From Verrucomicrobia bacterium S94 (GTDB taxonomy: Bacteria > Verrucomicrobiota > Kiritimatiellia > Kiritimatiellales > Pontiellaceae): a DNA stretch of 64,000 nt. Where the stretch lies: positions 3,968,001-4,032,000 of the forward strand of contig CP036201.1 of assembly GCA_004299845.1 (NCBI GenBank), given 5' to 3'. Within the stretch, counting starts at the first letter, position 1. Each line of letters starts with the position of its first letter. Below, one piece after another: positions 53,202-64,000 of this stretch. The translations under genes and the position numbers were made by a program. The notes below the pieces were generated by a model. That model was not told where the DNA came from and did not search any database. It saw only the letters and a program-made list of their open reading frames with translations.

Positions 53202-54083
53202 CTACCAGTGGATGCGGGGCGTGATATCCACCGGAAGGGGATCCGGCGGTGGCGGAGTGCCCTGTTCCACATCTTTCCGGACGGCAGATGGAGCGCGGCC
53301 GAAAATCCGGGTGAAGCGGCGTGAAAAATAGAGCGGGTTTTCGAAGCCGCAGCGCAGAGCAATTTCTTTTACGGAGAGGTTGGAACGGGTCAGGAGCACC
53401 AGAGCCAACTGCATACGCATCAGGGTTCCTGTATATACCGGGGGATAGCCGACGGAGCGGCTGAAGAGTCGGCACAGATGTTTGGATGAGCAGTTTGCTG
53501 AGCGTGCGATTTCGGCAAGGGTAAATTGGGCCAATGGGTTTTCATCAATTTGTTGACGCATCCATTTGAGTGCGCGCCGAACAGGTTCAGGCCGGTCGGG
53601 TTGAAAGCTTTCCCATTCCGCTTTTCCCGATTCAAAGCAGGTATTGATGAGCGATTCGACCAGCATACAGTCGCGATGTCCCGGGGGTTCGGCCGGCCAG
53701 TTCCGATGCTCATAGATATGTTTCATAATGTGCCGGAAAAGACTGACGCTCAGGTCGGGCGGGGTGTGGTGAATGCGCGGCCAGTTTTGCGGCGGAGGCC
53801 AGTCGGAGGGCAGGTGTGAGGCCCCGAAATGAAAAAAGGCGTGGCGGGTGATTTCAACGGGATCCCATTCATAGGTTTCTTCCGTTCCGGGCAGTCCGAA
53901 AATAAGCGAACCCGGGGGAGCCGGGTGGGCCTGACCATTGGCGATATATGTCGCCTGGCCGGAGAGAATGTATACGACTTCAAAATCGGTCAGCACACGG
54001 TTTTCCAGATGTTCTCCCGGCTGATAGAGAATCTCTCCGCCATAAAGGTAGTCCAGTTTTAAGTAGTCCGGTTGGGATTGCAT
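53202..54083 (-). CDS. AraC-family transcriptional regulator
   Basis: About 293 residues: an N-terminal cupin sensor (about 20-130) and two C-terminal helix-turn-helix motifs (about 195-290), with SSKHLCRLFSRSVGYPP and NPLYFSRRFTRIFG. The family typically activates carbohydrate genes. I take the ATG at 54081-54083; the frame could begin at the TTG at 54108. Neither has a clear ribosome-binding site. It is divergent from the UroD-like gene that heads the xylan cluster and is its likely activator. Confidence 0.88.
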   Translation of the reverse strand: MQSQPDYLKLDYLYGGEILYQPGEHLENRVLTDFEVVYILSGQATYIANGQAHPAPPGSLIFGLPGTEETYEWDPVEITRHAFFHFGASHLPSDWPPPQNWPRIHHTPPDLSVSLFRHIMKHIYEHRNWPAEPPGHRDCMLVESLINTCFESGKAEWESFQPDRPEPVRRALKWMRQQIDENPLAQFTLAEIARSANCSSKHLCRLFSRSVGYPPVYTGTLMRMQLALVLLTRSNLSVKEIALRCGFENPLYFSRRFTRIFGRAPSAVRKDVEQGTPPPPDPLPVDITPRIHW

Positions 54084-54183
54084 ATGCGAATATAGTGCAT
54101 GTTTATGCAACTCAGGTCAATGGGCGTAATCCGTAGAACATGTTTAATTATAGTCCACTGAATAATCAGGGGAGTAAATAAAG
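54084..54183. promoter_or_regulatory. Divergent control region araC-type/uroD-like
   Basis: Contains TTGCATATG ... TTATGCAA as an imperfect dyad (about 54078-54110) and a -10-like TATAGT (about 54148-54153) without a good -35, the pattern of an activator-dependent promoter for the plus-strand cluster. Confidence 0.45.
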
Positions 54184-55449
54184 ATGACAGGAAAAGAGCG
54201 GCTTAAGGCGACAATACGACATGTTGAGCCGGATCGGGTTTGTGTCGATTTCGGAAGTAATGCTGTAACAGGCATGCATGTGCGCACGGTGGAGCTGCTG
54301 CGTGGGTTCTACGGTTTGGAAAAGAAGCCGGTGAAAGTGTGTGAGCCGTATCAGATGCTCGGCGAAATTGAAGATGATCTCCGTGAACGGCTGGGAATTG
54401 ATACGGAGCCGCTGGTTGGGCATGGGACCATTTTCGGTTTTCGTAATGAGGATTGGAAGCTGTGGACGGCTCCATGGGGCCAGGACGTGCTGGTGCCGGC
54501 GGATTTTCAGGTTACATGTGATGCCCATGGGGATACGCTGATATTTCCGCAGGGAGACCGTTCTGCGCCGCCCAGTGGCCGGATGCCGGCGACGGGCTAT
54601 TTTTTTGACTGCATTGTACGTCAGCCGGAAATGGATGAGGAGAACCTGAGTCCTGAAGACAATCTGGAAGAATTCAGTGTCTTAGATGAAGAGGCGTTAA
54701 ACTGGTATCAGTCGGAAGCCATTCGGCTGGAGGGGAGTTCCAGAGGGATCGTGGCCTCAACGCCGGGTTCGGCGCTGGGCGATATCGCGCTCGTACCCGG
54801 TCCGTTTCTCAAATATCCCAAGGGAATCCGTGATATTTCTGAATGGTATATATCAACAGTGAGCCGTCAGGATTATATTCATGAGGTATTTCGTCAGCAG
54901 ACGGATATCGCCATTGAAAATATGCGCCTGTTGAAAGAAGTGACGGGGGATCTGATCGATGTGGTCTTTACCTGTGGTACCGACTTCGGAACACAGACAT
55001 CGCAGTTCTGTTCCGCCGATACCTATGAAGAGCTCTGGGCTCCCTATTACCGGCGGATGAATGACTGGATTCATGAAAACACGAGCTGGAAAACCTTCAA
55101 ACACTGCTGCGGCGCGGTTTATCCGCTTATCGCGCATTTTGTTGATTCCGGATTTGATATTCTGAATCCGGTTCAGTGTTCTGCGGCGGATATGGATCCG
55201 CAACGGCTGAAGGATGAATTCGGGGACCGTATTGTTTTCTGGGGCGGGGGTGTGGATACGCAGAAAACGCTTCCGTTCGGAACGCCGGAAGAGGTGTATC
55301 GGGAAGTCCGGGAACGGATTGATATTTTTGCGCCGGGCGGCGGGTTTGTTTTTGATGCTATCCATAACGTACAGGCGAATACCCCGATCGAAAATGTAGT
55401 GGCGATGTTCAAGGCATTGGAGGATGCGCGTTCTCTTGTTTACTTATGA
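54184..55449 (+). CDS. UroD-like (MtaA/CmuA-related) protein
   Basis: A 421-residue TIM-barrel protein of the uroporphyrinogen decarboxylase/corrinoid methyltransferase superfamily. KHCCG carries the His-x-Cys pair used for zinc in methyl-CoM methyltransferase MtaA, but the third ligand (Cys in APGCG of MtaA) is Gly here, in APGGGFVFDAIHN. Such divergent members are common beside glycoside hydrolases, and the reaction is unknown. GGGGAG lies before the ATG. The oxygenase gene starts 4 bases before its stop, so the two are translationally coupled. Confidence 0.78.
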   Translation: MTGKERLKATIRHVEPDRVCVDFGSNAVTGMHVRTVELLRGFYGLEKKPVKVCEPYQMLGEIEDDLRERLGIDTEPLVGHGTIFGFRNEDWKLWTAPWGQDVLVPADFQVTCDAHGDTLIFPQGDRSAPPSGRMPATGYFFDCIVRQPEMDEENLSPEDNLEEFSVLDEEALNWYQSEAIRLEGSSRGIVASTPGSALGDIALVPGPFLKYPKGIRDISEWYISTVSRQDYIHEVFRQQTDIAIENMRLLKEVTGDLIDVVFTCGTDFGTQTSQFCSADTYEELWAPYYRRMNDWIHENTSWKTFKHCCGAVYPLIAHFVDSGFDILNPVQCSAADMDPQRLKDEFGDRIVFWGGGVDTQKTLPFGTPEEVYREVRERIDIFAPGGGFVFDAIHNVQANTPIENVVAMFKALEDARSLVYL

Positions 55450-56513
55450 AATCAGTTCAGGAAATGACATCACGGTTTAACTATGATCTTTGCGGACCTA
55501 ATAGTGAGGCCGCTGTCAGAAAGCGGCTGGCTGAAGCGGTCTGGTATCAGACCCCGGTGGCGCGTGATGCGATGCGTAAATTGCTCGAGCGTCGGAATGG
55601 TCCGGGGATGCGCGATTGCTTCATCTGGTTTGGGCTGATGGCCGGCTGCGCCTGGCTGACGGTTTTCCTTTGGGGCAGCTGGCCGGCGTTTTTTCCGTAT
55701 ATGCTCTATGCGGTTCTTTACGGTTCCACCTCAGACTCACGCTGGCATGAATCGAGCCATGGGACTGTTTTTAAAACCGACTGGTTGAATAATGTGCTTT
55801 ATGAGGTTTCCTCGTTCATGGTTATGCGTGAATCCACCGTCTGGCGCTGGAGTCATACGAGGCATCATTCGGATACGATTGTGGTTGGCCGGGATCCGGA
55901 AATTGCAGTTCCCCGTCCGGTTCAGTTATTCAGGTTTATCCTTAACTTTACCGGGCTGCCCGCTGTATATGCTTATGTTCGTAAAATTCTGAAGCACAGT
56001 ACCGGAAATCTTTTTGATGATGAGCGGACGTATATCCCCGAATATGAGCATGGCCGTATCATTTGGAAAGCACGGGCCGTGCTGCTGATCTATGCGGGAT
56101 GCCTGGGTTGCAGTTGGTATTATCAGACTGTTTTTCCGCTGCTCTTTATCGGGCTTCCGAATCTGGCGGGGGCGTGGCTGATGCCCGTTTACGGTTTAAC
56201 TCAGCATACCGGGCTGGCGGAAAATGTGCTGGATCACCGGAAGAACTGCCGTACGGTACAAATGAATCGCGTTAACCGGTTTCTGTACTGGAACATGAAC
56301 TATCATATTGAACATCACATGTTTCCGCAGGTGCCGTATTACAACCTTCCGAAGCTGCACGAGCTGGTTCGTCACGACATGCCGTCCCCTATACCGGGCT
56401 TTGGGATGCCTGGCGGGAAATCATTCCGGCGGTTATCCGGCAGAGCAGGGATCCCGAATACTATGTTGAGCGGGAGGTTCCTGAGCCGGCGGCTGATAAC
56501 ACGGAATCCATGA
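55446..56513 (+). CDS. Membrane fatty-acid-desaturase-type oxygenase (MocD-like), C-terminus frameshifted
   Basis: A 355-residue di-iron membrane enzyme with all histidine boxes: H101-H105 (RWHESSHG), H137-H140-H141 (HTRHH), His254 and H287-H290-H291 (NYHIEHH). Such enzymes desaturate or hydroxylate; MocD, with the Rieske protein MocE, demethylates a methyl ether in rhizopine breakdown. The last 40 or so residues are out of frame: inserting one C in the CCCC at 56386-56389 gives LWDAWREIIPAVIRQ and then reads directly into the Rieske frame, with no stop between. The true product may be a single fusion of about 470 residues. Confidence 0.78.
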   Translation: MKSVQEMTSRFNYDLCGPNSEAAVRKRLAEAVWYQTPVARDAMRKLLERRNGPGMRDCFIWFGLMAGCAWLTVFLWGSWPAFFPYMLYAVLYGSTSDSRWHESSHGTVFKTDWLNNVLYEVSSFMVMRESTVWRWSHTRHHSDTIVVGRDPEIAVPRPVQLFRFILNFTGLPAVYAYVRKILKHSTGNLFDDERTYIPEYEHGRIIWKARAVLLIYAGCLGCSWYYQTVFPLLFIGLPNLAGAWLMPVYGLTQHTGLAENVLDHRKNCRTVQMNRVNRFLYWNMNYHIEHHMFPQVPYYNLPKLHELVRHDMPSPIPGFGMPGGKSFRRLSGRAGIPNTMLSGRFLSRRLITRNP

Positions 56514-56860
56514 TACGCATAGATTCGAATGAAACACCCGATGAGGAAGGGTGGGTAAAGGTTGGCCATGCGGACCTGCTGTTGCCGGAAGACGTGCTGC
56601 GTTTCGATCATGATGAAAAAACCTATGCGGTATACCGGACGGCTGAGGGTCTGTTTTATGCCAGTCAGGGTATCTGTTCCCATGGTCAGACTCACCTGGC
56701 ATCCGGTAAGGTGATCGGGTGTCAGATCGAGTGCCCAAAACATAATGGACGGTTTGATGTACGCGATGGATCGGTTCAGCGTAAACCGCCGAAAAACAGT
56801 CTGCAAATCTTTCCGGTGAAGTTGGATCAGGGAGACATACATATCAAGGTGACGGGATAA
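56510..56860 (+). CDS. Rieske [2Fe-2S] ferredoxin (MocE-like)
   Basis: A 116-residue Rieske domain with Cys56-x-His58 (CSHG) and Cys75-x-x-His78 (CPKH). It should donate electrons to the preceding membrane oxygenase. The ATG at 56510 overlaps the preceding ORF by 4 bases and has no good ribosome-binding site; the frame is continuous with the corrected C-terminus of the oxygenase, so this may be the C-terminal domain of a fusion. The stop shares a base with the GH120 start. Confidence 0.82.
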
Positions 56861-59073
56861 TGATGAATCAAACTGTAAAAAAAAGAAGTCTGCTGATCAT
56901 GGCGGTTTGTGCCGTATCGGCAGGAAGTGCTGTTGAATACCATGTTGCTAAAGATGGCAGAAATACCAATAGCGGAACATTAAACGAGCCCTTTCTGACG
57001 ATACAGCATGCGGCAGAACAGGCAATGCCGGGCGATATCATTACGGTTCATGAGGGGATTTACCGGGAGGAGATTAATCCTCCGCGGGGCGGAACATCAG
57101 AGGAAACCCGTATCGTCTACCGTGCCGCGAAAGGCGAAGACGTTGTGATTAAAGGTTCGGAAGTCGCCAAAGGCTGGACGCATGTGAAGGGCGATGTATG
57201 GAAACTGGTTATTGCGAATCCCGAGGCGTTTTTCGGTACTTTCAATCCGTTTCGCACCCAGATTTACGGAGACTGGTATAAACATCTGGGCCGACTGAAT
57301 CATGTGGGTCAGGTTTATCTCAACGGGCACTGGCTCACTGAAGCAGCGAGCCTTGAGGACGTCATGAAGCCGACGGGTGAGACGGCTCTTTGGTTTACCA
57401 ATGACAACCGGTATCCCAAAGACCGTTACGGTCCGTCTATCGATCTGCTCGGTTTTACTTTAAATGGTGACAGCGCAGCTTTCATAAAAGCGGTTGATAC
57501 TTCTGAACGGAAGGGGGCCGTAAATGGACATCATAAAGGCAAAGAACAGATCAGAGCCGCCCGTGCCGGCCAGTGGCTTAAATATGAAAACATCAACTTT
57601 GGAAAAGGTTCTTCCCGGATTACATTTCAGGCGCTCACTGAAACCGTAGGCGGTAGAATTGAAGTTCGTCTTGATGGACCGCAGGGTAAGCTTCTCGGAA
57701 CCGGAACCATTGACTGTACAGGCAGCAGCTGGTCGGGCTGGCGGGAGTTTTCCGCTGATATCAAAGAAACCGGCGGAATTCACACCCTCTGCCTGGTTTT
57801 CAAAGACAAGCCCGAACCGGAACCCAATGCGGAGGAAGTGATCATCTGGGCGCAGTTTAAGGACGTGAACCCCAACGAAGAGCTTGTGGAAATCAACGCC
57901 CGCGAAACGGTCTTCTATCCCCGGAAAACAGGCATTAATTATATCACCGTTTCCGGATTTACACTGGAGCAGGCCAGCCCCAACTGGGCTCCGCCCACTG
58001 CGGAGCAGGTTGGACTGATCGGCACGCACTGGAGCAAAGGGTGGATTATTGAAAACAACACGATCCGCTATTCCTCCTGCACCGGCATTACGCTGGGAAA
58101 ATATGGTGATGAAATGGATAACCGGGCGATGTCGGCGGAAGGCTATGTGGGCACCATAAAACGAGCCCACACCAACGGCTGGGCAAAAGGAAATATAGGC
58201 AGTCACATCGTGCGCAACAACAGCGTCTCCTATTGTGAACAGGCCGGGATCGTCGGAAGCATGGGCGCCGCCTTCAGCCGGATTATCGGCAATGAAGTCT
58301 TCCAGATTCACCAACGAGGACTTTTCAGCGGAGCCGAGATGGCCGGCATTAAATTTCATGCGGCGATCGATACGCTCATTGCGGATAATCATGTCTATGC
58401 ATGCAACCGGGGTATGTGGCTCGACTGGATGACGCAGGGCACCCGCGTCAGTCAGAATCTGTTCCACGGAAATATGAGCGAAGATCTCTGGCTTGAAGTC
58501 AACCATGGGCCCTGTGTGATTGACAACAACTTCTTCCTCTCCCGCACCTCGATTAATGACTGGTCGCAGGGCAGTGCATTTATTCACAACTTTTTTGGCG
58601 GAAAGCTGAAACTGGAACCGCAAAGACGTGTAACTCCCTATCATAAAGCACACTCTACAGAGATTGCGGGTATGGATCATGGTTACGGAGGCGACAACCG
58701 TTTCTTCAACAATATTTTTTCCGGGCCCAACGCACTGGATGCATATAAGGACAGTAAACTTCCGATTATTTCGGACAGTAATCTGATGCAGGAGTTCGAT
58801 TACGACATAAAAATAAAAAGAGACCGAGAACAGGTATTCCTCGAAATCACATGGCCGTCCCTTGCAAAGCTGCCCGGAACCTCTGTCGTCACAACCGGAA
58901 AGCTCGGAAATACAGCCATTTCCAAGTTGCCATACAGGAATTTCAACGGATTGGATCTGATTGTGAATAATGATTATTGGGGCAACTCCCGTAAAACCAA
59001 GTCGCCGACCGTCGGCCCGGTTCAAAAGATCAGGACAGGCCGCACCGAACTGAAGGTGTGGCCCAAAAAATAA
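56860..59073 (+). CDS. GH120-type beta-xylosidase with inserted CBM6-like domain, copy 1
   Basis: A 737-residue exported protein: signal peptide (about 1-24), right-handed beta-helix with the XylC-like start EYHVAKDG and [11 protein letters not shown], a CBM6-like insert (about 222-330), then the rest of the helix. The catalytic pair of Thermoanaerobacterium XylC (Asp382, Glu405) is matched by Asp522 in [12 protein letters not shown] and Glu546 in LEVNHGP, one residue further apart. It should release xylose from xylo-oligosaccharides in the periplasm. The family call is from recalled similarity to XylC. The ATG overlaps the Rieske stop by one base. Confidence 0.82.
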
Positions 59074-59227
59074 GCGCTTAGAGTTGAGCTGATACGGTTG
59101 ATGCACGAGACCGGCATGCCTGCCGGGAACGGGAAGAAGGGCGGTTTCGCTGTTGTCGCAGGCTCCGGGCCGGTTCACAGGCTCAACCGTTTCCGCCCTG
59201 TAACACGATACGGAGAGGATACTGAAA
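59074..59227. other. Gap between GH120 copies with hairpin
   Basis: CCGGCA/TGCCGG hairpin at 59111-59126 and a GTTGAGC/GCTCAAC pair flanking it; it may reduce read-through between the two copies. GGAGAGG near 59213 is the ribosome-binding site of copy 2. Confidence 0.45.
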
Positions 59228-61486
59228 ATGATGACCAGACTTAACATCCTGATACTTACCATGATTGCCGCAACAACCTATTCGGCGGAGTATCATGTAT
59301 CTACTCAGGGAAATGATGCTTACTCCGGCACAAAAAGCAGACCCTTCAAAACCATATCAAAAGGAGCGGAAGTTGCTCAGCCGGGAGATACGGTTATCGT
59401 TCATGAAGGCGTCTATCGCGAGGAGATCAATCCTCCGCGCGGCGGTACATCAGATAAGCAACGCATTGTTTATCGGGCCGCCAAAGGTGAAAACGTTGTC
59501 ATCAAAGGATCCGAAGTCGTCAAAGGCTGGACGCATGTGGAAGGCGACGTATGGAAACTTGTCATCGAAAATCCCGAGAGCTTCTTCGGAGCATTCAATC
59601 CGTTTCGTACGCAGATTTATGGCGACTGGTATCGCCATAAAGGTCGATTAAATCATGTGGGACAAGTTTATCTCAATGGTCATTGGTTGAGCGAGGCCTC
59701 AAGCCTGGAGGAGGTTATGAAACCGGCCGGGGAAACCGCTTTGTGGTATACCAATGACCAGCGTTATCCAACCGATCGCTATGGTCCCTCGGTTGACCTG
59801 CTTAAACTCGAATTAAATGGGGAGAAGGCAGCAGCGTTGAATGCGGTGGATTTTACCGATCGAAAAGGCGCATGGACCGGAACGCATAAAGGGGATGATT
59901 ACATTAAAGCCGCCCGGGAGGGGCATTGGCTGAAGTATGAAGAGGTTAATTTCGGAAAAAAGACCTCTCAAATCACTTTTACCTGCATGACCGAATCCAT
60001 CGGTGGACTTATTGAAATCCGTCTTGACAGTCAACAGGGCCAACTGCTTGGAATCTGTCCGGTTGATTATACGGGATCCAGGTGGACAGGCTGGCGGGAG
60101 TTTTCCGCAGACATCAAAGAAACCGGCGGAATTCACACCCTCTGCCTGGTTTTCAAAGACAAGCCCGAACCGGAACCCAATGCGGAGGAAGTGATCATCT
60201 GGGCGCAGTTTAAGGACGTGAACCCCAACGAAGAGCTTGTGGAAATCAACGCTCGCGAAACGGTCTTCTATCCCCGGAAAACAGGCATTAATTACATCAC
60301 CGTTTCCGGATTTACACTGGAGCATGGGAGCCCCAACTGGGCTCCGCCCACTGCGGAGCAGGTTGGACTGATCGGCACGCACTGGAGCAAAGGGTGGATT
60401 ATTGAAAACAACACGATCCGCTATTCCTCCTGCACCGGCATTACGCTGGGAAAATATGGTGATGAAATGGATAACCGGGCGATGTCGGCGGAAGGCTATG
60501 TGGGCACCATAAAACGAGCCCACACCAACGGCTGGGCAAAAGGAAATATAGGCAGTCACATCGTGCGCAACAACAGCGTCTCCTATTGTGAACAGGCCGG
60601 GATCGTCGGAAGCATGGGCGCCGCCTTCAGCCGGATTACCGGCAATGAAGTCTTCCAGATTCATCGCCGGGGGCTTTTCAGCGGAGCCGAGATGGCCGGC
60701 ATTAAATTTCATGCGGCGATCGATACGCTCATTGCGGATAATCATGTCTATGCGTGTAACCGGGGCTTATGGCTTGACTGGATGACGCAGGGCACCCGCG
60801 TCAGTCAGAATCTGTTCCACGGAAATATGAGTGAAGATTTATTTCTGGAGGTTAATCATGGGCCCTGTGTAATCGACAATAACCTGTTCCTGTCCAGCAC
60901 ATCTGTTAGCGACTGGTCGCAGGGCAGTGCTTTCATTCATAACCTGATTGCAGGCAATGTGTGGGTCTCTCCTCAGGAGCGCCAAACGCCCTACCACCCT
61001 GCGCACTCCACCGAACTGGCCGGTCTCGATAAAATATATGGAGGGGATAACCGCTTTTTTAACAACATCTTTGCGGGCCGGGACGCCCTTATAAATTATA
61101 GAAAAGGCGAACTGCCGTTATTCACCGGAGCCAACCTGTTTTTGAATAAAGCCACTCCGCTTGATCCGGAAAAGGACGGTGCGGTGATGGCGGACTTTGA
61201 TCCTCAGATTAATGTCGTGAGAGATGGTAATGATGCATATGTCGAAATGGTTTTTCCGAAAGTAAACGGCTTAAAAACGGAGATCATTACTACGGCTGAT
61301 CTGGGTGAAGCGGCCATCCCGAAACTCCCTTATAAGAATTATGATGAAGCAGACCTCATCGTGAATAATGACTATTGGGGCAACCCGCGTAAAACAAAGG
61401 CGCCTTCGGCTGGTCCCTTTGAAGATTTTAAACCGGGTGCTGTTAAGCTGAAAGTCTGGCCGAAAAATAAAACCATTACGAAATGA
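59228..61486 (+). CDS. GH120-type beta-xylosidase with CBM6-like insert, copy 2
   Basis: A 752-residue protein with signal peptide (about 1-20) and the same layout as copy 1. Catalytic residues are Asp517 and Glu541. The CBM6-like insert is at about 217-325. Between 60089 and 60830 the DNA is colinear with 57736-58477 of copy 1 with roughly 19 differences by my hand count, while the flanks differ much more, a sign of gene conversion. The next gene overlaps the stop if started at 61483. Confidence 0.82.
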
Positions 61487-61512
61487 AAACCTATATTGAC
61501 GGACACTTATGT

Positions 61513-63618
61513 ATGAAATTATTTCGACGGAAATTAATGGTCTTAACGCTGGCCGCTGCTGCGTGCTGCAGCGGGCGTCCTGCCACCGAACAAAAACCTT
61601 TAGCGGATGAGGATGGTTATAAGCTGTGGCTTCGTTATGCCAATCCCGGCGAAGCAGCATCGTCTTATAGAAAACAGGTTAAGCAGCTTCATATTGAAGG
61701 TAACTCGGCGACCAGTAAGATTATTCAAAAGGAGTTGAAGGCTGCCATAAAGTGCATGCTGGGCCATGACGTAAAGCTGTCCGGTGATTCGCTTCTAAGC
61801 GGCTCCGTGCTGATCGGCACCCCTCAAAATTCTTCAGTGATCCGAAATTTAAAATTAACAAAAGAGCTCGAACAACTGGGCGGTGAAGGCTTCATTATCC
61901 GGTCAACAAGCATTAATGAAAAGCGTGTCATCATCATTGCAGCGAACACTGATATCGGAACGCTCTACGGCGGTTACCATTTCCTGCGACTGATGCAGAC
62001 GGGAAAGCCCATTGATTCGCTGGATATTGCCGAGGCCCCCGCGCTTCAGCTGCGGATGATGAACCACTGGGACCGGCTTGATGGCCGTATTGAACGAGGC
62101 TATGCAGGACGCTCGTTGTGGCAGTGGGATGAACTGCCCGATACGTTAAGCCCCCGTTATTCAGACTATGCCCGTGCCTGTGCCTCGATCGGGATCAACG
62201 CAGCGGCCGTCAATAACGTTAACGCCGACCCGCTTATCCTTTCAGAAGAATATCTCGAAAAAGTCGCCGCACTGGCAGATCTTTGGCGGCCGTATGGTGT
62301 GCGGATGTACCTGAGTGTAAACTTTGCTTCGCCCTTGGCGCTGGACGGATTGAAGACGGCCGATCCGCTGGATAAGAACGTTATTGCGTGGTGGAAAAGC
62401 AAGGCTGATGAAATCTACAAGCGTATTCCCGATTTCGGAGGTTTTGTGGTTAAAGCGGATTCTGAGGGACAACCCGGCCCGAAAACCTACGGACGTTCCC
62501 ATGCCGAAGGGGCAAACATGCTGGCCGATGCGCTGGCTCCGCATAACGGTATCGTGCTGTGGCGCGCTTTTATTTACGACACCGAGGTGGATCCGGATCG
62601 TACGAAACGGGCTTATCTTGAGTTTACCCGGCTTGATGGCCGGTTCCGCCCGAATGTCTCGGTTCAGGTAAAAAACGGCACCTTGGACTTCCAACCTCGC
62701 GAACCGTTCCATCCGCTGTTCGGCGGGCTGAAAAAGACATCGGTTATTGCAGAAATCCAGGCGTCTCAGGAATATCTCGGGCAGGCAAAACATCTCGTCT
62801 ATCACGGACCTATATGGAAAGAGTTTTTGGATTCCGATACATATGCCAAAGGAAAAGGATCAACGGTTTCCAAGGTTTTAGCCGGTGAAGTATATCCGAA
62901 CCGCATAACCGGACTGGTATCTGTCACCAACCCCGGACTGGATCCTAACTGGTGCGGGCACCACTTTTCTCAGGCAAACTGGTTTGCTTTCGGCCGTTTG
63001 GCCTGGAACCCCGATTTAACGGCGGAAGCCATTGCGGACGAATGGATCCGTATGACGTTTACGAATGACGATAACGCTGTTTCCGCGATTCGCGATATGA
63101 TGATGGGGTCGTATGAAACCTTTGTCCGATATTCTATGCCCCTCGGACTGAACGGGTTGATCGGCGGCGATCATTACGCTCCGGAGCCCTGGCACAAACA
63201 GGGCGGCATGCCGGCATGGTCGGCGGACTATTATCACAATGCATCCACCGCAGGCATCGGCTATGACCGCACCCGCAGAGGAAATCATGCGGTTGATCAA
63301 TACCATCGGCCGGTCAGTGATCTGTTTAACGACCCGGAAACCTGCCCTGAAAAGTTTCTGCTCTGGTTCCATTACCTGCCATGGGATTACACCATGAAAT
63401 CTGGCAGAACATTATGGGAAGAGCTGCAGTCAACGTATCAGCAAGGAGCTGCAGAAGCTGCTGAAATGCAGAAAGTATGGCAATCGCTGAAAGGAAAGAT
63501 TGACGCACGCAGACATAAAGAAGTGGCCGATCGGCTGGCTGTTCAGGTAGCCGATTCGGCAAAATGGAGAGATAAGGTCTTAGCCTACTTCGGCCGGTTT
63601 GCGGAGCAGGATAAATAA
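61513..63618 (+). CDS. aguA: GH67 alpha-glucuronidase
   Basis: A 701-residue (4-O-methyl)glucuronidase that removes glucuronate from the non-reducing end of xylo-oligosaccharides. Conserved segments include MMNHWDRLDGRIERGYAGRS, LSVNFASP and NWFAFGRLAWNPD. Catalytic candidates are Glu318 (SEGQPG), Asp392 (LDFQPREP) and Glu420 (SQEYLG); the 28-residue Asp-Glu gap equals Cellvibrio D365/E393. An export signal MKLFRRKLMVLTLAAAA favours the ATG at 61513 over 61483. It sits between the GH120 copies. Confidence 0.93.
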   Translation: MKLFRRKLMVLTLAAAACCSGRPATEQKPLADEDGYKLWLRYANPGEAASSYRKQVKQLHIEGNSATSKIIQKELKAAIKCMLGHDVKLSGDSLLSGSVLIGTPQNSSVIRNLKLTKELEQLGGEGFIIRSTSINEKRVIIIAANTDIGTLYGGYHFLRLMQTGKPIDSLDIAEAPALQLRMMNHWDRLDGRIERGYAGRSLWQWDELPDTLSPRYSDYARACASIGINAAAVNNVNADPLILSEEYLEKVAALADLWRPYGVRMYLSVNFASPLALDGLKTADPLDKNVIAWWKSKADEIYKRIPDFGGFVVKADSEGQPGPKTYGRSHAEGANMLADALAPHNGIVLWRAFIYDTEVDPDRTKRAYLEFTRLDGRFRPNVSVQVKNGTLDFQPREPFHPLFGGLKKTSVIAEIQASQEYLGQAKHLVYHGPIWKEFLDSDTYAKGKGSTVSKVLAGEVYPNRITGLVSVTNPGLDPNWCGHHFSQANWFAFGRLAWNPDLTAEAIADEWIRMTFTNDDNAVSAIRDMMMGSYETFVRYSMPLGLNGLIGGDHYAPEPWHKQGGMPAWSADYYHNASTAGIGYDRTRRGNHAVDQYHRPVSDLFNDPETCPEKFLLWFHYLPWDYTMKSGRTLWEELQSTYQQGAAEAAEMQKVWQSLKGKIDARRHKEVADRLAVQVADSAKWRDKVLAYFGRFAEQDK

Positions 63619-63629
63619 TACGGTATACG

Positions 63630-64000
63630 ATGAAAATAAGAAACAGACTTAGAACCGCCTTCACCCTTGCTGTTTGCACAACGGCGACCTTTGCTGCGGA
63701 ATACCACGTCTCTGTAAAAGGGAATGACGCCAACGCCGGATCAATGAGCAAACCTTTCAGAACGATCTCTAAGGGGGCCGAAGCGGCGATGCCGGGAGAT
63801 ACGATTATTGTCCATGATGGCATCTATCGAGAAGAGATTAATCCTCCGCGCGGAGGAACATCAGATAAAAAGCGTATTGTTTATCGTGCAGCAGAAGGTG
63901 AAAAGGTGATCATCAAAGGGTCTGAGATTGCCAGGGGGTGGACGCATGTGGAAGGCGATGTCTGGAAATGGGTCTGCAAGAATCCGGATTCCTTTTTTGG
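63630..64000 (+). CDS. GH120-type beta-xylosidase, copy 3 (cut by window end)
   Basis: The first 123 codons of a third GH120 gene: signal peptide, then [30 protein letters not shown] and [11 protein letters not shown], closest to copy 2 by eye. The start is 11 bases after the GH67 stop. The catalytic residues lie beyond the window. Confidence 0.85.
   Translation, partial: MKIRNRLRTAFTLAVCTTATFAAEYHVSVKGNDANAGSMSKPFRTISKGAEAAMPGDTIIVHDGIYREEINPPRGGTSDKKRIVYRAAEGEKVIIKGSEIARGWTHVEGDVWKWVCKNPDSFF

Follow-up and report, generated by a model that had tools for sequence, protein, structure and literature searches.

A putative methyl-sugar operon with candidate oxygen-dependent and corrinoid-dependent demethylation enzymes under one regulator

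Methyl ethers, frequent decorations of glycans from plants and algae, bar the way into central metabolism. To our knowledge, the P450 route for 6-O-methylgalactose is the only demethylation described within a polysaccharide locus; a literature search likewise returned only this route for polysaccharide loci, and found none for the demethylation of 4-O-methylglucuronate. The locus analysed here, in which a putative oxygenase and a UroD-like protein are encoded together with glycosidases, raises the question of whether it demethylates a glycan-derived sugar, and by which chemistry.

The window, that is the whole stretch of 64,000 nucleotides that we analysed (G000:C1:3968001-4032000), belongs to a genome of 4.1 Mb in a single contig. 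The operon runs on the + strand from 54184 to approximately 65906 in the order UroD, MocD-type oxygenase, Rieske, GH120, GH120, GH67 and GH120, with an AraC gene divergent from it (Table 1), and its genes, all on the + strand, either overlap by 1-4 bases or are separated by gaps of 11-154 bp. All the parts named in the initial annotation (AraC, URO-D, FA_desaturase, Rieske, GH120 and GH67) were recovered by Pfam where it had placed them. The GH120 proteins have the beta-helix and the insertion domain PF21258 at 85-90 bits, and all three Pfam domains of GH67 scored above their cut-offs. As judged from sequence, the GH120 and GH67 proteins carry signal-like N-termini and UroD carries none. The arrangement is not due to chance, as its pairs (UroD-GH120, UroD-MocDE, AraC-UroD and AraC-MocDEF) recur elsewhere. 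Beyond the third GH120 gene lie PL8, GH88, GH43, a sulfatase and a second AraC gene, which resemble other glycan units and are not counted as part of the operon.

Table 1. Features of the operon and its regulator, in window positions
Feature	Position	Strand	Basis and remarks
AraC-family regulator	53202..54110	-	PF12833/PF00165; divergent from operon
UroD-superfamily protein, candidate methyltransferase I of a corrinoid-dependent O-demethylase	54184..55449	+	PF01208, MtaA/CmuA-like
MocD-type membrane di-iron oxygenase	55446..56513	+	PF00487, 139 bits; homologous to relatives until ~56386, out of frame beyond
1-nt frameshift point within the MocD-Rieske fusion	56379..56390	+	joined 471-aa reading aligns with the L091 fusion
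Rieske frame, putatively MocE-type [2Fe-2S], CxH and CxxH ligands	56312..56860 (separate ORF from 56510)	+	PF00355
GH120 beta-xylosidase-like protein with CBM6, signal-like N-terminus	56860..59073	+	PF21258, PF03422
Second GH120 with CBM6	59228..61486	+	PF21258, PF03422; 73% identity to first GH120
GH67 alpha-glucuronidase, N, M and C domains, lipoprotein-like N-terminus	61483..63618	+	PF03648, PF07488 (475 bits), PF07477 (277 bits)
Third GH120, 758 aa, only its start in the window	63630..64000, ends ~65906	+	ORF list; L004:1631-3907; PF21258 match G000:C1:4031936-4032154

The oxygenase and its Rieske domain

We found that the oxygenase is 48-53% identical to rhizobial MocD and 48-67% identical to MocD relatives, and that its histidine boxes (H101/H105, H137/H140/H141 and H287/H290/H291) are invariant. 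In a tree whose inner support was partly low, it fell inside the MocD set on short branches, nearest to L091 (67%), while the acyl-CoA desaturase outgroup stood on a very long branch. MocD relatives were present in 31 of 388 sampled genomes of the phylum, the window genome counted (E<1e-100). In other phyla their neighbours include aldose 1-epimerase (22 loci), RhaT-like transporters (8 loci), sugar dehydrogenases, Gfo/Idh/MocA genes and three groups of xylose-isomerase-like TIM barrels (19, 13 and 9 loci), a gene context that would fit demethylation of methoxy sugars or cyclitols. The mocDEF genes of Alphaproteobacteria lie among PanB-like, formyl-THF deformylase and inositol catabolism genes, a setting that fits release of a C1 unit. 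The MocD-type identity proposed at the outset was thus borne out by identity, tree and neighbourhoods.

The Pfam name FA_desaturase could indicate a lipid desaturase or a carotenoid-type hydroxylase unrelated to the glycosidases, and a PDB fold search with the oxygenase model (pLDDT 70) gave only two weak matches, on which we build no argument. However, the best curated matches were far below cut-off, the acyl-CoA desaturase is remote in the tree, the oxygenase has a Rieske fusion, and sugar genes surround its relatives. We rejected an acyl desaturase on the tree and the curated matches; the placement among lipid desaturases that would have told against the initial annotation was not seen, and a lipid-related function is very improbable.

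The initial annotation read the oxygenase and the Rieske protein as separate, coupled genes. The Rieske frame, however, is free of stops back to 56312, 75 bases before homology to relatives is lost from the oxygenase frame, and a -1 shift near 56387 (TCCCCTATACC), at or close to a short run of C, joins the two frames into a 471-aa MocD-Rieske protein. The joined protein is 62% identical to the intact L091 fusion over 460 aa, linker included. On the open frame and this alignment, we replaced the reading of a separate, translationally coupled Rieske gene by that of one MocD-Rieske gene in which 1 nt is shifted. Elsewhere in the genome ccoN, in a cbb3 oxidase cluster that is otherwise normal, is split by a similar 1-nt shift, and an assembly error is therefore the likely cause. 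Alternatively, the shift may be a real mutation, leaving the gene dead in the host, or a programmed -1 frameshift, although no canonical slippery heptamer was seen by eye at TCCCCTATACC. In this assembly, the O2-dependent route is either broken or mis-sequenced.

Most relatives of the oxygenase are fusions of approximately 760 aa, in which the oxygenase is followed by Rieske and FNR-type reductase domains. The best match of the Rieske domain, which is fused to the oxygenase in relatives, was the MocE-type family TIGR02377, at 103 bits against a cut-off of 136 bits. We found no reductase (FNR) domain after the Rieske domain or elsewhere in the locus, and a genome-wide search for a dedicated MocF gave NqrF, inside the nqr operon, as the sole close homologue of the fused reductase domain. 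Since no MocF-type reductase is encoded, we class the window protein as a MocD-type oxygenase rather than as a complete MocDEF. Two-domain MocDE fusions lacking the reductase exist (L111, L102, L117, L131, L140 and L070).

The UroD-like protein and the corrinoid hub

The initial annotation gave no role to the UroD-like gene, which proved to be a recurrent partner of GH120 and corrinoid genes. The protein matches URO-D (PF01208) and, weakly, the MtaA/CmuA families. Its AlphaFold model (pLDDT 87) had MtaA (4ay7) as the top PDB match (E 1.5e-12), and 4ay7 also ranked first in a profile search, whereas a single-sequence search against PDB gave no match. Half of the MtaA H-x-C...C metal site is present (H307-x-C309, with the third Cys replaced by Gly), and H394 is invariant in the alignment. 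The O-demethylases MtvB, OdmB, VdmB and MtoB belong to the UroD superfamily, and some O-demethylases function without zinc (PMC13222342).

Orthologues of at least 50% identity (50-61%) occur in 34 other genomes. In seven loci (L227-L230 and L233-L235) the orthologue adjoins an MtgC-like corrinoid protein, accompanied in five of the seven by RACo and often by DUF1638 or a second UroD. Six other genomes (G260, G228, G007, G020, G012 and G215) have a GH120 gene no more than 10 kb away from UroD, with a chance estimate of ~4e-9 under simple assumptions, and many other orthologue loci hold AraC and an MFS sugar porter. UroD orthologues (51-60%) also stand near MocDE(F) in four further lineages (L094, L098, L111 and L115), a coincidence far above chance (~2e-7) but, since these loci were found via MocD, no measure of how frequent the pairing is. 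The most probable role of the UroD-like protein is that of methyltransferase in a corrinoid O-demethylase.

The corrinoid protein of the genome is encoded at 0.69 Mb, far away from the operon at 4.02 Mb. It lies in a hub at ~686-698 kb, together with another UroD, DUF1638, RACo (PF14574, 260 bits), formate-THF ligase (FTHFS), an MTHFR/pterin-binding fusion, a FolD-like gene and, by sequence, a formate-channel-like gene; the corrinoid protein is MtgC-like. The hub has no UroD of the window type, which in relatives such as L233 is inside such a cluster. Other UroD paralogues of the genome lie ~8 kb from a GH115-UxuA pair (L187) and within a cluster of UxaC, an NPN hexonate epimerase, a sugar kinase and UxuA (L177). 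The genome encodes two GH67, two GH115, UxaC and UxuA; hexuronate catabolism genes that the initial reading needed are thus in place, and, with glucuronate isomerase (UxaC) and mannonate dehydratase (UxuA) both present, the organism can plausibly use glucuronate.

The explanation that we favour, with only modest confidence, is a methyl-sugar operon in which a single regulator controls two kinds of demethylation, one dependent on O2 and the other on a corrinoid. The operon would serve growth on a methoxylated, xylose-containing glycan, whose oligosaccharides GH120 and GH67 would trim outside the cytoplasm, freeing a methylated sugar. With O2, the MocD-Rieske protein would hydroxylate the O-methyl group of this sugar, giving formaldehyde. 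Without O2, the UroD-like protein would move the methyl group of the same sugar to the corrinoid protein of the distant hub, and the group could then pass to methyl-THF and on to formate. The signal for the divergent AraC-type regulator would be the methyl sugar or an oligosaccharide of it. Against this explanation stand the frameshift, the absence of a nearby reductase, the distance of the corrinoid protein, the half MtaA motif and a GH67 link that is not conserved.

Regulator, oxygen and substrate

Orthologues of the AraC regulator (at least 42% identity) are rare, being found in 7 of 388 genomes, the window genome counted. In four genomes (G260, G228, G003 and G274) they flank a window-type UroD, in G125 a MocDEF fusion, and one more is at a contig end. 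In L091, outside the 388-genome sample, the regulator adjoins MocDEF, while a weaker member (39%) in G211 has other neighbours. COX1 was present in 29 of 29 genomes with MocD (8 of them also with UroD) versus 3 of 24 with UroD only (p 6e-12), and within the window's class in 8 of 8 of the former and 3 of 22 of the latter (p 3e-5), relatedness among the genomes inflating both p values. This split goes in the direction expected of O2-dependent and O2-independent routes, and the window genome itself has heme-copper oxidase genes. It may well be, though we would stop short of calling it probable, that one AraC subfamily presides over two oxygen-matched routes, UroD/corrinoid in anaerobes and MocD(E)(F) in aerobes, and that the window operon has both, which would open methoxy sugars, 4-O-methylglucuronate for example, to use with or without oxygen.

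Since GH67 sits in the operon, 4-O-methylglucuronate is the most natural candidate substrate. The co-occurrence of GH67 and MocD that the initial annotation proposed to check was raised at the genome level only, and modestly: both are present in 7 of 387 other genomes, against an expectation of 2.2 (p 0.003, uncorrected for phylogeny), but no GH67 homologue was found in ~110 other MocD neighbourhoods (up to +-10 kb), and neither MocD nor window-type UroD in 13 fetched GH67 neighbourhoods. We rejected a recurrent GH67-MocD module on these neighbourhoods, and the case for 4-O-methylglucuronate consequently rests on the window operon and on G119, where UroD, GH43 and GH67 share one 32-kb contig, with UroD and GH67 16 kb apart. 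We tentatively keep 4-O-methylglucuronate as the leading candidate. The conserved neighbours, in turn, suggest GH120 and methyl sugars generally; in G122, GH120 lies ~8 kb from a MocDEF.

The substrate may instead be a methylated xylose or a 6-deoxyhexose, and GH67 would then be an independent accessory acting on the same glycan. Such a sugar (2- or 3-O-methylxylose, methylated fucose or methylated rhamnose), which is compatible with the two-route explanation, is a serious possibility that nonetheless falls short of probable. UroD recurs with GH120 rather than GH67, in one case the GH120 gene next to UroD is a fusion with GH29 and has GH97 behind it, and RhaT-type transporters and GalM adjoin MocDEF relatives; against this stand the placement of GH67 between GH120 genes in the window operon, the G119 contig, and the two GH67, two GH115, UxaC and UxuA genes of the genome.

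Other readings give a role to only one of the two enzymes. The UroD/corrinoid route could work alone, with the MocD-Rieske gene an acquired and now frameshifted pseudogene between UroD and GH120. Besides the shift between the domains and the missing reductase, related operons pair UroD with GH120 only, no other sampled genome has MocD (at least 50%) beside UroD and GH120 together, and a more distant paralogue in the genome carries an in-frame stop. The frames are otherwise intact, however, to the extent of the L091 alignment, the ccoN split is of the same kind and points to assembly error, and reductase-less fusions occur in six other loci; we consider this reading unlikely. Less likely still is the version of the initial annotation, in which a GH67-linked module of oxygenase and Rieske protein would demethylate 4-O-methylglucuronate by itself, with an incidental UroD-like protein: the gene order of the window and the genome-level co-occurrence agree with it, but GH67-MocD adjacency is absent from the other genomes examined, and the partner conserved with GH120 and the AraC subfamily, as well as with MocDE(F) in four lineages, is UroD.

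Relation to known demethylation systems

Evidence on the activity of MocDE(F) has to date come from the genetics of rhizopine use. Rhizopine is 3-O-methyl-scyllo-inosamine, and mocDEF is a part of its catabolism (PMC10107442). The window operon shares with rhizobial MocDEF the oxygenase family, a Rieske domain for which MocE is the best-matching family, and a sugar or cyclitol catabolic context; unlike it, the window has a fused, frameshifted oxygenase-Rieske gene, no MocF in the locus, linked glycosidases and UroD, and an AraC regulator instead of LacI or MocR. Porphyran users demethylate 6-O-methylgalactose with a P450 (PMC10033563), likewise by oxidative removal of a methyl ether within a polysaccharide locus, giving formaldehyde, as would the window enzyme. 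Their route differs in using cytochrome P450 and ferredoxin, rather than a membrane di-iron oxygenase and Rieske protein, and in acting on another glycan; in the window, the oxygenase is coupled to a possible O2-independent route.

The UroD-like protein resembles MtvB, OdmB, VdmB and MtoB (PMC13222342) in its fold, in orthologues beside a corrinoid protein and RACo, and in the hub leading to THF. It forms, however, a distinct sequence group, is encoded apart from its likely corrinoid protein, and has a context of sugars rather than methoxylated aromatics. Type 1 mlp clusters (MtaA-like proteins, corrinoid protein and Ram/RACE; PMC10418091) also combine a UroD-superfamily protein, a corrinoid protein and an activator, as in the hub (L178). 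Those clusters, in contrast, are proposed for S- and Se-methyl compounds and have a His-Cys-Cys motif, of which the last Cys is missing from the window UroD.

The UroD-superfamily corrinoid demethylase family has so far been tied mainly to methoxyaromatics and haloalkanes. A corrinoid-dependent sugar O-demethylase, if true, would extend this family to sugars, and anaerobes would gain methyl-THF or formate from the methyl groups of glycans. The proposed exchange of one chemistry for another under the same AraC subfamily, in step with oxygen respiration, can be put to a direct test.

Methyl-group genes and possible indel errors in the host genome

Genes for a corrinoid protein, the corrinoid activator RACo, tetrahydrofolate (THF) and formate metabolism form a compact cluster in the host genome, which also holds DUF1638 and a UroD bearing a thioredoxin-like domain; this cluster is possibly a general methyl-group hub. 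Three MocDEF neighbourhoods (L064, L126 and L142) also contain genes for a corrinoid protein and for a methanol:corrinoid methyltransferase of MtaB-like type. In the host genome, a 1-nt frameshift splits ccoN inside a cbb3 oxidase cluster that is otherwise normal, which suggests that the assembly contains indel errors.

Coordinates of the features
Feature	Locus	Position
Corrinoid/formate cluster	L178	G000:C1:682000-701000
Oxygenase paralogue	L005:9149-10204	G000:C1:1745229
Split ccoN	L277	G000:C1:2575800-2578300
UroD paralogue cluster	L177:6945-16744	
Antisense frame	window	57460-59262 (-)
Downstream glycan genes	L004:4494-18901	

Other membrane oxygenases

A further oxygenase paralogue of the host genome shows 33% identity to MocD of the window; its reading frame is broken by an internal TGA, and it adjoins a TIM-barrel sugar gene. 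In a genome of the same genus (G228, L225), a single run comprises AraC, UroD, a GH120-CBM6-GH29 fusion, GH97 and an FA_desaturase of a second, distant type, and is an independent case of UroD paired with a membrane di-iron oxygenase.

Window surroundings and a UroD paralogue

Antisense to the first GH120 gene runs a 600-aa open frame; UroD orthologues likewise overlie similar frames, and all are probably codon-bias artefacts. Further glycan genes lie downstream of the window, encoding a DUF7402 protein, PL8 lyase, GH43, a second AraC, GH88, BNR_4, a sulfatase-like protein and GH95. A UroD paralogue clusters with GH29, UxaC, an NPN-dependent hexonate epimerase (616 bits), 6PGDH-like and sugar-kinase-like genes and UxuA, and this company hints at UroD roles in uronate use.
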